NCBI GenBank assembly: GCA_025464095.1
Contig: JAODMF010000021.1
Span: 62,001 to 126,000 of the forward strand
Source: Glaciihabitans sp.
GTDB lineage: Bacteria > Actinomycetota > Actinomycetes > Actinomycetales > Microbacteriaceae
Direction: 5' to 3'
Length of the DNA: 64,000 nt
The position numbers and the translations under genes were made by a program. Of this stretch, positions 3,562-42,784 are shown piece after piece. Under the pieces are notes generated by a model. The model was not told where the DNA came from, made no database searches, and saw only the letters and a list, made by a program, of their open reading frames with translations. Position 1 is the first letter of the stretch. Every line of letters starts with the position of its first letter.

Positions 3562-3564
3562 CCC

Positions 3565-3650
3565 CTCCCCCTCACACGAGTTGCCCACTTTGGCCGGTAT
3601 GCCGGGCGAGATAGCGACACAAGTGGGCAACTCGTGTGAAGGGGGGCGGG
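3565..3650. repeat. Palindromic repeat, family C, copy 1
   Basis: Two 19-bp arms are perfect inverted repeats: TCACACGAGTTGCCCACTT at 3572-3590 and its complement at 3621-3639. They extend imperfectly into C-rich and G-rich flanks. The arm recurs at 7759-7824. The element begins immediately after the cysE stop and could also act as a transcription terminator or mRNA-stabilising hairpin. Confidence 0.85.
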
Positions 3651-3788
3651 AGACTTGACGATTCCGCGACTCTTTGGGCCGATTCCTCGACAGATGGGGA
3701 ACGACCTGTCTAGGGTGTGAGACACGACCCCACTCGGGGGGTGCATCCCACGTGCCGTAGCCGCACATCCCTAGGAGCTGTTCGAGTC

Positions 3789-6700
3789 ATGACCTGGCGC
3801 ACCCCCACAATCGCAATCACCACCGCCCTACTGCTCGGGATGTCGGCGCTCGCCGCCCCATCGGCTTCCGGGGCGACCCCCGACCATTCGATCGCCGAGG
3901 TTCAGGGCACCGGGGCCGCAACCCCGCTCTCCGGCACCGTGGTGACCGTGGAGGGCGTCGTCACCGCCGACTATCGCGGCGTGAGCAACTTCCGCGGACT
4001 GTTCGTGCAGTCGGCCACCTCGGCCGGCATCGACGGGGCGTCGGACGGGATCTTCGTCTACCTCAACCAGGCGAACCCCGCGGTGTCCATCGGCGACCTG
4101 GTGACGGTCACCGGCACCGCCGGCGAGAACGGCGGCCAGACCCAGATCACCGCGACGACCGCGGGCGCCGTCAGCCTGGTCAGCGCGAACGCCGGAGTGC
4201 CGGATGCGGTGAGCCTGCCCGCAGCGACCGTCGGCACCGCGCGCGAAAAGTTCGAGGGGATGCGCGTCGAGCTGACCGGGACCTACCTGCTCAGTTCAAC
4301 GCACCAGGTCTACAACTTCGGAACGCTCTGGCTGAGCGCTGGCAAGCTCGCCGTGAAGTCCACCGAGACGACGGATGCCGGCCCGGCCGCTGACGCGATC
4401 GCCGCCGCCAACCGTGCCAGCCGGCTGCTCGTCGATGACGGCTACAGCATCCGGGTCGACAATTCCGCGCACCCTGGCACGCAACCGTTCCTCTCCAAGG
4501 ACACCGTGGTCCGCGACGGGGACCGGTTCGTTCCGCCCGCACGGCCGATGATCCTGGGCGAGGGCTTCGGCGACTACCGGCTCGAGCCGAGCATCCCCAT
4601 CAATGACTCGAGCGCCGCCGCCTACAAGCCGACGTTCGAGACCCTGAACCCGCGCCCGGCCACCTCGCCGGAGGTCGGCGGCGACTTCGCTGTCGCGTCG
4701 TTCAACGTGCAGAACTACTTCACCGACTTCGGCGGCAACGCCCGCGGCGCGGCAAATGCCGCGGAGTTCGCCGTGCAGAAGTCCAAGACCATCGCCGGAA
4801 TCGTCGGGCTTGGCGCGAGCATCGTCACGCTCGAGGAGGTCGAGAATTCGATCAAGTTCGGGCATCCGGTCGACACCTCGCTCGCCGACCTGGTCGACGG
4901 CCTCAACGCGAAAGAAGGCGCCGGTACCTGGGCGTACGTGCCGACACCGGCAGCGCTTGCGGATGCCGCAGCCACGACCGACTTCATCACCAACGCCATC
5001 ATCTACAAGCCGGCATCCGTCACCCGCATCGGCGACAGCATCGCCGACATCGACGAGACCGTCTGGAACATCGCGCGCGAACCGATCGCGCAGACATTCC
5101 GGGTCGACGGCAAGGTCATCACGGTCATCGGTAACCACCTCAAGTCCAAGAGCGGAACGGGCACCGAGCCCGCCGACGGGCAGGGGCAGTTCACCGCGGA
5201 GCGGGTCGCGCAGGCGAAGAGCCTCGCTGCGTTCATCACGACGATCACCGAGGACCCGGCCAAGGGCAAGAACGTCATCTCGCTGGGCGACTACAACGCG
5301 TACGCGCAGGAAGACCCGATCCAGGCGCTCACGGATGCCGGGCTCGTCGACCTGGTTCCGACGAAGACCGACGACCAATACACCTACACCTTCGACGGCG
5401 AGGTCGGCTCACTCGACCACGCGCTCGTGACGAAGGCGCTCGCTGCATCCATCGCCGGCGTCGGCGTCTGGTCGATCAACTCAGCGGAGTGGAGCGATCG
5501 CGGCTACGCGTTCGGCGCCACGGAGGCGGGCACGCCATTCCGGTCGAGCGACCACGACCCGATCAAGGTCGGAATCACGGCGGCAGATCCGCCCGTGAAC
5601 ATCGACGTCGTGTCGATCAACGACTTCCACGGGCGCATCGAGGCCTCCTCTCCCGCGGCTGGCGCAGCAGTTCTCGGCGGCATGGTGAAGTCCTACCGCG
5701 CCGCGAACCCGAACACGCTGTTTGTCTCCGCTGGTGACAACATCGGCGCATCCACCTTCACCTCGTTCATCCAGGACGACCAGCCGACGCTGGACGCGCT
5801 GAACTCGATCGGGCTCGACGCAAGCTCCCTCGGCAACCACGAGTTCGACAAGGGGGCCAGCGACCTGACCGGGCGCATCCTCCCCCCGGCGAACTTTCCC
5901 TACCTCGCTGCCAACATCTATGACAAGGGCACCGAGACTCCCGCCTACGATGCCTATTCGGTGAAGCAGGTGGATGGGGTGTCGGTCGGATTCATCGGAG
6001 CCGTCACCGAGGAACTCCCCACGCTGGTGAGCCCCGCCGGAATCGCGAACCTGACGGTTGGCCCGATCGTGCCGGCCGTCAACCGCGTGGCGGACCAGCT
6101 TTCCGACGGCGACCCGGCCAACGGCGAAGCTGACGTTCTCGTGCTGCTCGTGCACGAGGGAGCCGCAACGGCAGACATCGCCGACTCGACCGGCGACACC
6201 GTTTTCGGCAGGATCACCTCGGGCGTCGACGCGAATGTGGATGCCATCGTCTCGGCCCACACGCACGTCACCTACAACCACCAGCTGCCCGTTCCCGGAA
6301 CCGACCGCACGCGGCCCGTCCTGCAGTCCGGCCAGTATGGCGAGAAGTTCGGACACCTGTCGCTCTCCGTGGATCCGCAGAGCCACAAGCTGCTGAGCAT
6401 CACCTCCGAGGTGAAGCCGCTGTTCGGCGCGTACCCGCCCGACCCGGCCGTGGCTGACATTGTCGCGGCGGCGGTGAAGGTCGCCGATGTGAAGGGTGCC
6501 GTGAAGGTCGGCGAGATAACCGCCGACTTCAACCGGGCATCCCAGTCCGCCAGCCCGTTCGCGGAGAACCGCGGCGGCGAGGCGACGCTCGGCAACTTCG
6601 TCGCGGACGTGCAGTTGTTCGCGGCGAAGGATGCCGGCGCGCAGGTCGCGCTGATGAACCCGGGCGGGCTGAGGGCAGACCTCAGGTTCGCCGGCACCGG

Positions 6701-7745: not shown

Positions 7746-7758
7746 CCCCCCACACACA

Positions 7759-7824
7759 CACACGAGTTGCCCACTTTTGTCGCTATTTCGGCCGGGATAG
7801 CGACCAAAGTGGGCAACTCGTGTG
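7759..7824. repeat. Palindromic repeat, family C, copy 2
   Basis: Arms of 28 bp (7759-7786 and 7797-7824) pair with one mismatch around a 10-base loop. The outer 19 bases, CACACGAGTTGCCCACTTT, match copy 1 at 3572-3590. It begins 14 bases after the nuclease gene stop, preceded by a short CA repeat. Like copy 1, it sits directly downstream of a gene. Confidence 0.87.
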
Positions 7825-7868
7825 ATCGCCAGCGGTAGGTCGGCAGCGGCTTGTACTCTGGGATCGAC

Positions 7869-9785: not shown

Positions 9786-9869
9786 TTGCAAATTCAGGAG
9801 ATCGCTGGAACATGTCGGCGTGTTGGGGCCGACACGCCGGGGCGCTCGCGCGATCTCCTGAATTTGCAA
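9786..9869. repeat. Palindromic element, family A, intergenic copy
   Basis: Perfect 20-bp inverted arms, TTGCAAATTCAGGAGATCGC at 9786-9805 and its complement at 9850-9869, enclose a GC-rich 44-base loop. Arms and loop both align with the element inside tilS at 17414-17501. The copy sits between the convergent recQ and trxA genes and could serve as a bidirectional hairpin terminator. The preceding bases 9672-9785 hold only low-complexity repeats of the word CGTGCCTG. Confidence 0.9.
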
Positions 9870-17281: not shown

Positions 17282-17327
17282 GGTGGTGCTCCTCAGCTGG
17301 CGGTGAATGCTGCAATAACGTTACTGG

Positions 17328-18425
17328 ATGGACTCCGAGCGTCGACCGCGCCTCACAGCCGCCATGGCGGACGTGCGGCGTGCGGTGCGCGCGACCCTCA
17401 CCGATGCCCTTCCCTTTGCAAATTCAGGAGATCGCGCCACAGGCTCGGCGAGTCGGGCCAAACACGCCGGGAGCGCGCTGCAATCTCCTGAATTTGCAAA
17501 GAAAAGCGAGAGCGAGGGGCCGAGACTCGTGCTGGTCGCGCTCTCGGGCGGCCCCGATTCCCTCGCCCTCGCGGCCGCCACGGCGTTCGAGGCCCCGCGC
17601 GCAAACCTCCGCGCCGGCGCAGTCATCGTCGACCACGGGCTGCAGGCCGGTTCAGGGGATGTCGCGGCGCGCGCCGCGCAGCAGGCAACCGATCTCGGGC
17701 TGGAGCCGGTCCTCGTCCGCACGGTCACGGTCGGCACCGACGGCGGTCCGGAGGCCGCCGCGCGCACCGCGCGCTATGCCGCCCTGGCCTCGGCCGCGGC
17801 GGAAACGGGGGCAGCCGCCGTGCTGCTCGGCCACACCCTCGACGACCAGGCCGAGACCGTGCTGCTCGGCCTCGCCCGCGGCAGCGGTGCCACGAGCCTG
17901 GCGGGCATGGAGCAGGCGGTCGGCATCTATCTGCGGCCGCTGCTCCGCATCCGCCGGTCGACAACCGTGCAGGCATGCGCGGATGCCGGCCTCGTGCCCT
18001 GGACAGATCCGCAGAACGCAGACCCGGCGTTCGCTCGCGTGCGCGTGCGCGAGCGCGTGCTCCCCATGCTCGAAGCGGAACTCGGGCCGGGCATCGCGGA
18101 GGCACTGGCCCGCACCGCCGACCAGCTGCGCGAGGACGGGAACGCGCTCGACCACTTCGCCGAGGAGATCGCCGAGGAACTGGCCGAGATCGCAGAGGCA
18201 GGCATCTCGCTGCCGGTCGGCGCACTAGCCAGCAACCCGCCCGCGCTGCGCCAAAGGCTCATCCGCCTGGCGGTGCAGGGCGAATTCCACGTGACGCTGT
18301 CGCGGGCGCAGACGCTCGAGGTCGCGCGGCTCGTCACCGACTGGCACGGGCAGAAACCGGTGCATCTACCGGGCGTTAGGGTGGAACGGCAGGGAGCCCT
18401 GCTTCTCTTCACCGCCGCGGAATAG
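17328..18425 (+). CDS. tilS: tRNA(Ile)-lysidine synthetase carrying an in-frame palindromic insert
   Basis: TilS converts C34 of tRNA-Ile(CAU) to lysidine, which is essential for AUA decoding. The PP-loop SGGPDS is at residues 73-78, unusually far from the N terminus; about 30-45 is usual. The shift is explained by an 88-bp palindromic element that encodes about residues 29-58 (FANSGD ... SPEFAKK), between the N-terminal helix and the first strand. The remainder looks intact (VVDHGLQ, HTLDDQAET, RVRERVLP). The 365 residues end in a short C-terminal domain. It overlaps no neighbour and precedes hpt by 6 bases. Confidence 0.93.
   Translation: MDSERRPRLTAAMADVRRAVRATLTDALPFANSGDRATGSASRAKHAGSALQSPEFAKKSESEGPRLVLVALSGGPDSLALAAATAFEAPRANLRAGAVIVDHGLQAGSGDVAARAAQQATDLGLEPVLVRTVTVGTDGGPEAAARTARYAALASAAAETGAAAVLLGHTLDDQAETVLLGLARGSGATSLAGMEQAVGIYLRPLLRIRRSTTVQACADAGLVPWTDPQNADPAFARVRVRERVLPMLEAELGPGIAEALARTADQLREDGNALDHFAEEIAEELAEIAEAGISLPVGALASNPPALRQRLIRLAVQGEFHVTLSRAQTLEVARLVTDWHGQKPVHLPGVRVERQGALLLFTAAE
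17414..17501. repeat. Palindromic element, family A, inside tilS
   Basis: Perfect 19-bp arms, CTTTGCAAATTCAGGAGAT at 17414-17432 and its complement at 17483-17501, enclose a 50-base loop. The loop shares CTCGGCGAGTCGGGCC-like and ACACGCCGGG segments with the copy at 9786-9869. The element has no stop codon in the tilS frame or in the opposite-strand frame. Both strands encode the same FANSGD...SPEFAK pattern because of the palindrome. Confidence 0.9.
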
Positions 18426-37928: not shown

Positions 37929-38094
37929 TGGTGATGCTTGCGCTGAACCGACGCATCCTGTCGCTTGGCGCGGCCATGACGTTGGCGATGGTTGCGCCGA
38001 GCCGACGCTTCCTGTCGCTTGGCGCGGCCATGACGTTGGTGATGCTTGCGCTGAACCGACTTTTGTTGTCGCTTGGCGCGGCCCCAAGCGACAA
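37929..38094. repeat. 54-bp tandem repeat (minisatellite)
   Basis: Units start at 37959, 38013 and 38067, each with TGTCGCTTGGCGCGGCC, preceded by a partial unit from 37929. The period is exactly 54 bases (18 codons). The last unit ends in an 11-bp perfect hairpin (TTGTCGCTTGG at 38066-38076 with CCAAGCGACAA at 38084-38094) that could stop transcription from either side. It separates the SseB-like gene from the convergent DUF559 gene. Confidence 0.88.
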
Positions 38095-38118: not shown

Positions 38119-39039
38119 TCAGCGGCCCCGATCGAGTGCGGTCCGCAATTTTCCGAAGAGAACCGCGCTCCTTCGCAGCAATTCCCTGTCGACGCGGATG
38201 ACGCGCCACCCCTCCTCCATCAGGTCGTCCAGGCGACGGATGTCCACCGCGAACTGCGCAGGATCCTCCGCGTGCTGCCGTCCGTCGTACTCGAGAATCA
38301 CGCGCTCCCTCGGCCAGGTCAGGTCGCCGTGGGCGATCACCGCGCCGAAGCCGTTGCTTATGGGGAAGTTCACGACCGGCTCGGAAAAACCGGCACGGAC
38401 CACGAGCAGCCGCAGCATCGTCTCCCGCGCCGAGTCAGTGCCGGCGCGCATCAGGCCGAGAGCGGTGCGCAGGCGCGGGGTACCGCGCGCGCCCTTTCGC
38501 GCGGCCACCGCATCCTGCATCTGTTCGATGGATGCCAGCGGCGACTTTCGCCGGATGATTCCGTCTCCCATGATCACCAGGCTGTCGACTCCCATGGCCG
38601 TTGCGAGGCTGCACCAGGTGTCGATGGGACTGGTGACGCGGAGCCCGTTCGCCAGGGTCTGGACCTCGAATTCCGCAAGCTCGTGGCCAACGGTCAGCCG
38701 CGAGCGGGGTGCCCGGTCCGGCGCCGCGACGTGGAGGCGACCCGGGCGATAGCCCTCGGGCATCCGGAGGCCCAGGAGTTCCGCAGCGGTTGTATGGCTG
38801 AAGAACTGGGTCGGCGGCATGGTCCGCGAGTAGGCGAGGGCGAGCTGCGCGGTGGTGAGTGCCGGGGTGGTGAGTGCCGTTGTGGGAAGTACCGCGGAAG
38901 CCGGGGTGCGCACCCCGCGGAAGGTGACTGCCAGGTCCCGCGCGCGAAGTCGGCGCGGGCTGACTCCCAACTCGCGCGCCTCTTTCACGCTGAAGGAGCG
39001 GACGGGGAGTGGGTCGGGGAGGGGTGACGGGGTTCGCAT
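38119..39039 (-). CDS. DUF559-domain protein (AbiEi-like N terminus, Vsr-like nuclease fold)
   Basis: A 306-residue protein. The N-terminal third resembles the winged-helix of AbiEi-type antitoxin-like proteins (SVKEARELGVSPRRLRARDL). The C-terminal third is a DUF559/Vsr-like endonuclease fold, with VILEYDGRQHAEDPAQFAVDIRRLDDLMEEGWRVIRV holding the acidic and histidine residues. Such solitary proteins are abundant in actinobacteria, and their role is unknown. The ATG at 39039 lacks a clear ribosome-binding site. Its first 30 codons and promoter are tandemly repeated upstream. Confidence 0.78.
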   Translation of the reverse strand: MRTPSPLPDPLPVRSFSVKEARELGVSPRRLRARDLAVTFRGVRTPASAVLPTTALTTPALTTAQLALAYSRTMPPTQFFSHTTAAELLGLRMPEGYRPGRLHVAAPDRAPRSRLTVGHELAEFEVQTLANGLRVTSPIDTWCSLATAMGVDSLVIMGDGIIRRKSPLASIEQMQDAVAARKGARGTPRLRTALGLMRAGTDSARETMLRLLVVRAGFSEPVVNFPISNGFGAVIAHGDLTWPRERVILEYDGRQHAEDPAQFAVDIRRLDDLMEEGWRVIRVDRELLRRSAVLFGKLRTALDRGR

Positions 39040-39614
39040 CCGAAGATCGTGCCGTGGCGAGTCATCCGGTGGGCCGCAGTGCGGCCGAGTGGTGGTGAGC
39101 CGACGCGTGTTGTCGGCTGGGGAGGGCGGGAGCGACAACTGGTGTCGGGTCACAAGGCGACGCGAGAGCGGCGCGGGCTGACGCGCAATTCGCGCCTATT
39201 TCACGCTAAACGAGCGGGCGGGGAGTGGGTCGGGGAGGGGTGACGGGGTTCGCATCCGAAGATCGTGCCGTGGCGAGTCATCCGGTGGGCCGCAGTGCAG
39301 CTGAGTGGTGGTGAGCCGACGCGTGTTGTCGGCTGGGGAGGGCGAGAGCGACAACTGGTGTCGGGTCAGGGCGGCGCGGGAGCTGCGCGGGCTGACGCCC
39401 AACTCGCGCGCCTCTTTCACGCTAAACGGGCGGGCGGGGAGTGGGTCGGGAAGGGGTGACGGGGTTCGCATCCGAAGATCGTGCCGTGGCGAGTCATCCG
39501 GTGGGTCCGTGTGCGGCCGAGTGGTGGTGAGCCGACGCTTGTTGCCGGTTGGGGAGGGCGAGAGCGACAACTGGTGTCGGGTGAGCGCGGCGCGGGAGCG
39601 CCGCGGCAGCCGCG
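38953..39614. repeat. 216-bp tandem repeat of gene start plus promoter, three copies
   Basis: Three copies carry the same block: about 80 bases encoding the start of the DUF559 protein, and about 135 bases of upstream DNA. The start-codon positions (39039, 39255, 39471) are exactly 216 apart. Copy 2 has lost 2 bases (near 39187) and ends in TAG after 19 codons. Copy 3 reads open into copy 2. The array fills the 579-base gap between the DUF559 start and the radA stop; there is no other gene in it. Confidence 0.9.
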
Positions 39615-42696: not shown

Positions 42697-42784
42697 GGAA
42701 CCGTGTCCGAGCGGCCGAAGGTGCAACTCTCGAAAAGTTGTGTGGGTGTTGAGCCCACCGTGGGTTCAAATCCCACCGGTTCCG
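42697..42784 (+). tRNA. tRNA-Ser (CGA)
   Basis: An 88-nt class-II tRNA with acceptor GGAACCG paired to CGGTTCC, anticodon loop CTCGAAA (CGA) on stem CAACT/AGTTG, and a long variable arm. CCA is not encoded. Its last 12 bases, CCACCGGTTCCG, recur at 53538-53549, marking it as the attachment site of the adjoining island. Confidence 0.95.

Follow-up and report, generated by a model that had tools for sequence, protein, structure and literature searches.

Short palindromic repeats translated in frame within housekeeping genes have, in the open-access literature, previously been reported mainly from Rickettsiales. Nearly half of the Rickettsia palindromic elements (RPEs) lie in genes (PMC10969869), and inserts resembling the Wolbachia palindromic element (WPE) are known in addA, addB and priA (PMC4224334). 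Here, we analysed a 64,000-nucleotide stretch of the actinobacterium Glaciihabitans sp. (assembly GCA_025464095.1, contig JAODMF010000021.1, positions 62,001–126,000; hereafter, the window), in which an 88-bp palindrome lies inside tilS, the gene for the essential tRNA-modifying enzyme tRNA(Ile)-lysidine synthetase, and the phenomenon now extends to a high-GC actinobacterial family. According to the explanation that we favour and consider probable, the insert in tilS is one of many copies of a Microbacteriaceae palindromic element (MPE). This element would be copied within the genome and its arms bridged by a protein, and the peptide translated from the tilS copy would be a tolerated passenger. 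MPE is a name of convenience for a pair of inverted arms (core GGAAAYTCAGGA, or GCAAATTCAGGA in the source-genome subfamily) that stand whole helical turns apart, often around a central dyad; its usual location is intergenic, most often on the 3′ side of a gene. We found no published name or description of the element in the open-access literature, in keeping with the first-pass annotation of the window, which was made from the sequence alone and knew of no named equivalent in Microbacteriaceae.

The tilS element and its relatives in the source genome

The locus comprises the following features, in window coordinates:

17328–18425, plus strand: tilS, tRNA(Ile)-lysidine synthetase, 365 aa, frame intact with the element inside (PF01171, 2.8e-33; PF09179, 2.6e-07)
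17343–17399, plus strand: conserved N-terminal helix RPRLTAAMADVRRAVRATL, 5′ of the element (from the alignment; AlphaFold helix at residues 11–27)
17414–17501, plus strand: palindromic element, in-frame insertion of 88 bp, residues 30–58 (matches the family; missing from orthologues)
17414–17435, plus strand: left arm CTTTGCAAATTCAGGAGATCGC of the tilS element
17446–17469, no strand: central dyad CGGCGAGT-CGGGCCAA-ACACGCCG of the tilS element, a degenerate version of the subfamily centre CGGCGTGT...ACACGCCG
17481–17501, minus strand: right arm, the left arm inverted; the minus strand reads CTTTGCAAATTCAGGAGATTG
17544–17561, plus strand: PP-loop motif SGGPDS of TilS, 3′ of the insert
9786–9869, no strand: intergenic copy of the tilS element, 80 bp arm to arm, as in the tilS copy

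The palindrome, which reads CTTTGCAAATTCAGGAGAT...ATCTCCTGAATTTGCAAAG at its two ends, is translated in the tilS frame as F30-ANSGDRATGSASRAKHAGSALQSPEFA-K58, which makes the protein about 29 residues longer in the stretch that joins the conserved N-terminal helix to the PP-loop strand. The first-pass annotation had already described this 88-bp palindrome as lying in frame inside tilS and had named the intergenic stretch as homologous; both statements hold, the two copies being 76% alike across about 100 nt. Its estimate of about 30 residues encoded upstream of the PP-loop also stands, with their range moved from residues 29–58 to about 30–58. It was likewise right that both strands stay open through the element, as a minus-strand open reading frame (17321–17767) yields FANSGD...SPEFAK, the same two arm peptides as the plus strand. 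The product of 17328–18425 contains both expected Pfam domains, ATP_bind_3 and TilS, and solved TilS structures align with it from residue 62 on. A codon-usage gene caller puts the tilS start 3′ of the element; judged by sequence conservation, the start at 17328 is the better one, because the helix RPRLTxAxADVRRAVR upstream of the element is conserved across the family.

The window contains four occurrences of the arm core GCAAATTCAGGAGAT where 0.63 are expected, and none of 100 shuffles reached four. The source genome (G000; 2.50 Mb in 29 contigs, 83% complete) holds 15 elements of the tilS-type subfamily, and all 29 of their arm matches are paired. Fourteen of these elements have a GC-to-GC length of exactly 80 bp, and one has a length of 79. 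Their arm reaches to about (CCC)TTTGCAAATTCAGGAGATYGC, and a centre of the form CGGCGTGT-loop-ACACGCCG is common to the copies; this combination of an extended arm and a shared centre argues that whole units were copied within the source lineage, one of which would have landed in tilS. By the codon-usage gene caller, 14 of the 15 are intergenic and a single one is genic, a distribution with a probability of about 1e-12 if 88% of the genome is assumed to be coding.

A sister subfamily with arms GGAAATTCAGGG, mostly 90–92 bp long, is represented in the same genome by eight copies found by exact pattern. Seven of them lie within 38 kb of contig C3 (354–393 kb), around era, leuA, glyS, dusB and dnaG, and the eighth lies in tlyA on contig C12. 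A looser search added one further GGAAATTCAGGG-type copy, of 80 bp, beside a C3 copy, giving at least nine sister copies in total.

Distribution, arm spacing and genomic position

The exact source-genome arms gave no pairs in relatives because these use GGAAAYTCAGGA, as their TilS proteins revealed. A sample of 110 family genomes contained elements with GGAAAYTCAGGA arms in 12 cases for one spacing range and in 10 cases for the next, and at least 14 genera besides the source have elements of this type, counting contigs of Agromyces allii, Salinibacterium and Glaciihabitans. The first-pass annotation had staked its reading on the arms being found elsewhere in related genomes, and they are, both in the 15 source-genome copies and in the sister family across Microbacteriaceae. 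In an exact-arm scan of 84,980 species, matches were confined to Microbacteriaceae. Phage and plasmid collections yielded no matches above chance, and a phage or plasmid origin was rejected on this ground. One IMG/VR match (L152, 59 bp, GC 45%) is probably due to chance; it was kept once among the 152 lengths and in the phase statistics described below.

Measured from GG to CC, the lengths of 152 elements fall at 59 (one element, on a doubtful viral contig), 68–71, 79–83, 90–92, 100–102 and 111–113 bp, with nothing between, and two independent search ranges together span 52–113 bp without a gap. The period is about 10.7 bp, or about one turn of DNA (Rayleigh R 0.90). When the elements were reduced to 35 genome-by-class values, R was again 0.90, with p<=3e-4 by simulation, a value that serves only as a guide because elements within length classes are related by descent. 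The same length classes return in many genera with unrelated interiors.

The paired arms could be selected as RNA structure. An RNA hairpin element of this kind, acting as a processing site, stabiliser or terminator, would fit the perfect 19-bp stem with its strong folding, and it would also fit the genomic position. Based on gene calls that, for the relatives, were made within this analysis, 10 elements of all loci examined lie inside genes, 9 overlap them and 130 are intergenic. Convergent gaps are enriched (33 of 130 elements, against 45 of 303 among all gaps of at least 100 bp), whereas divergent gaps are depleted (14 of 130, against 71 of 303). Nevertheless, we regard selection for a hairpin as rather unlikely. 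The left and right arms are no more complementary to each other than arms swapped among elements that share both genome and length (z 0.5 for positions 13–17), which argues that the paired structure is not what is conserved, and compensatory covariation is absent in every part (z between −2.0 and 1.2 across all segments). Moreover, length steps of one DNA turn would be meaningless for a hairpin loop, no Rfam family matches the element at the gathering threshold, and no T run follows the stem. Single arms, for their part, fold at about 0 (0 to −0.1) kcal/mol.

From these sequence comparisons, the arms look like protein-bound duplex sites rather than a selected hairpin, and the quantised lengths together with the lack of covariation point to one protein assembly that holds both arms. 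Such a putative protein, implied by the fixed helical phase of arms that do not covary, would bridge the two arms by binding each in duplex form, both on the same face of the helix.

Many copies cluster in the conserved era, leuA, recO, glyS, dusB, dgt, dnaG and nadAB region, as seen in four relatives (G023, G029, G070 and G106), in the source sister subfamily and, where the region was assigned by gene order, in a fifth relative (G060). G021 and G029 have concentric nests of arms, two or three deep, in which the left-hand arms have plus and the right-hand arms minus orientation (for example, G021 C1:1921722–1922026 and G029 C12:133949–134266); same-orientation arms follow each other in steps near 33, 44, 55, 66 and 88 bp, close to multiples of 11 bp. 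It is conceivable, if tentative, that MPEs are sites of a DNA-bridging protein forming a chromosome-organising array, densest at era-leuA-recO-glyS-dusB-dgt-dnaG. The nested arms would then stand in helical register, arm pairs could be set around existing DNA by selection or a dedicated process, even inside genes, and the tilS insert would be a stray. As to a position of the cluster at the replication terminus, GC skew sampled along G021 had no clear switch, and the first 20 kb yielded no dnaA.

Insertion into tilS and other genes

Alignment with other TilS sequences indicates that the residues in question are inserted and not native. As the first-pass annotation had proposed to check, orthologues free of these residues do exist: 20 of the 22 other TilS sequences in our alignment (A1) lack the NSG...PEF insert, including that of G123, a congener of G021, and some linkers have only about 10 residues, as in G022. 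The only comparable inserts are those of G021 and G023, both versions of the same palindrome. Linkers of the TilS family do differ in length and sequence, which speaks for native residues or an artefact of assembly; that explanation is nevertheless extremely improbable, given that the tilS DNA matches the element family along its whole length and that inserts of the same type occur in the independent assemblies G021 and G023. AlphaFold, run on a 23-sequence alignment, modelled TilS with a predicted local distance difference test score (pLDDT) of 89 overall, about 45–50 in the insert and 84–98 in the helix and strand flanking it, so the insert probably sits in a linker and forms a flexible loop. 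In the tilS of another genus (L068, from G008), four in-frame tandem copies of GFETGAGAPSST stand at a different loop, before GGPEAAAR, perhaps representing another in-frame repeat family.

The inserts of the source genome, G021 and G023 might descend from one ancestral tilS insertion that was later lost or homogenised, a scenario compatible with the explanation that we favour and in itself possible, though doubtful. The source and G021 group weakly on the TilS tree (86/77), which leaves room for a single origin. Against this, each insert belongs to the subfamily resident in its own genome. The source insert has GCAAATTC arms and 80 bp, that of G023 (VGNSGD...SPEFPT) has GGAAACTCAGGAGATCC arms and 71 bp where the rest of G023 measures 69–70, and that of G021 (L077) consists of arms nested three deep on either side, in steps of 45 nt. 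Furthermore, the congener G123 has no insert. This residency in particular favours separate insertion or local conversion, as far as sequence comparison can tell.

Beyond tilS, which carries the element in three genera, in-frame elements backed by family models are present in hrpA, menD, nadB and smc. The hrpA copy interrupts the alignment with Escherichia coli HrpA at residues 205–241, where a single residue stands; the menD copy lies in an inter-domain linker and the smc copy at about residue 940. In the gene-borne copies, the left arm is translated as NSG or EIQ/ETQ and the right arm as PEF or LNF, so that two left-arm and two right-arm frames are in use, while none of the model-supported copies uses the TGA frame of the right arm. 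This range of genes, together with the repeated targeting of the same tilS linker in three genera, might suggest a protein-coding palindrome of the Rickettsia type, either selected for entry into genes or specialised in it, whose encoded peptide has a role. We consider this quite unlikely, as only one of the 15 source-genome subfamily copies is genic, each arm is read in two frames, and the insert is predicted to be unstructured and is not conserved. Most likely, the inserted peptide is a tolerated passenger, its neutrality being inferred. The tilS copy would have survived because it is read in a frame that misses the one stop codon (TGA) in the right arm, because its net length is divisible by three, and because the target linker, which leads from the N-terminal helix to the PP-loop strand, varies freely in length.

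Under the explanation that we favour, the units would be copied by a transposase-like activity or through recombination. A transposase working on the element ends is a plausible agent of spread because the ends of short transposons must be in helical phase in order to pair; short IS50 derivatives were reportedly found by Goryshin in 1994 to transpose with helical-phase dependence, which offers a possible reason for the MPE phase. Several observations weigh against the favoured explanation. No target-site duplication was detected, the flanks being about as alike as those of shuffled partners whatever the offset or length tried, although the insertions may be too old. The source genome, at 83% completeness, has no Y1 transposase (PF01797), which was found in 5 of 14 control genomes, and no autonomous parent transposon was found; mobility of the element is thus putative. 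The genomes compared for TilS belong to other genera and provide no empty site for this very tilS copy. In tlyA of the source genome (L165 5851–6525 on C12; element at 6188–6289), the arms stand 102 bp apart around sequence that aligns with native TlyA, the right arm supplying six extra residues and the left arm replacing native ones. Similarly, in a nucleoside kinase gene of G022 (L113 12772–13398), arms 92 bp apart surround native protein with no clear insertion. Because the arms flank native-aligning sequence in both genes, simple unit insertion cannot explain these pairs, and some arm pairs seem, from these alignments, to have arisen around existing DNA. Finally, the RNA of whole elements is predicted to be very stable (z −6.7 and below), and an RNA role is possible.

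The window contains further repeats. An unrelated second palindromic family, with a layout like that of the tilS element, is present in two copies (3562–3652 and 7748–7838; arms CACACGAGTTGCCCACTT, about 67 bp, with an inner stem). In addition, there are a 54-bp tandem repeat (37929–38090), a 216-bp direct repeat (38942–39605) and a dispersed 103-bp repeat (at 42773, 53538 and 60465), each in three copies.

Comparison with known repeat systems

Like RPEs and WPEs, MPEs are short multi-copy palindromes, some of which are translated in frame in unrelated housekeeping genes (PMC10969869). RPEs are about 150 bp long, whereas MPEs measure 59–113 bp (80–88 bp in the source subfamily), are mostly intergenic, reside in a high-GC actinobacterial host and have a helically quantised length. 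In-frame insertion into unrelated protein-coding genes is thus common to both, but the large genic share of RPEs is not, with one of 15 copies in the source genome and 10 of all loci examined lying inside genes. Accordingly, the Rickettsia precedent invoked by the first-pass annotation stands as regards the mode of insertion but not as regards membership, since 14 of the 15 copies are intergenic and more than one frame is used. We hold the likeness to be one of analogy, MPEs being set apart here without sequence comparison with RPEs or WPEs.

Repetitive extragenic palindromic (REP) sequences, among them the GTAG- and CGTC-tagged ones, offer another parallel. Some CGTC repeats begin with TGTC, as MPE arms often do (PMC3733652); the text of that paper makes no mention of actinobacteria. 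In layout and position, including the enrichment in convergent gaps, MPEs resemble REP dimers, bacterial interspersed mosaic elements (BIMEs) and REP doublets forming hairpins (REPINs), and differ from promoter operators. However, REP arms are themselves hairpins, with a stem of 8–9 bp and a loop of 4–5 nt per unit in the CGTC type, whereas MPE arms do not fold. REPs and REPINs mobilised by REP-associated tyrosine transposases (RAYTs) are accompanied by a Y1 transposase in the genome, which the source genome does not show.

With miniature inverted-repeat transposable elements (MITEs), MPEs share small size, terminal inverted arms (here 12–20 bp at both ends), the lack of coding capacity of their own and copying within the genome. 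They differ in having neither a target-site duplication nor a found parent transposon, and in interiors that are mostly unrelated in relatives.

New here are the quantised arm-to-arm lengths of these elements. They offer a direct, testable lead towards a protein that would hold the two arms, and such a protein would bear on how palindromes spread and why their ends stay conserved while their interiors drift. In the lac and gal systems, two duplex operator sites are bridged by the repressor, and their spacing must keep helical phase. MPEs differ from these operator pairs in occurring in dozens of copies per genome, in being rarer in divergent intergenic regions and in that their binding protein is putative, but they share with them the arrangement of two duplex sites at phased spacing.
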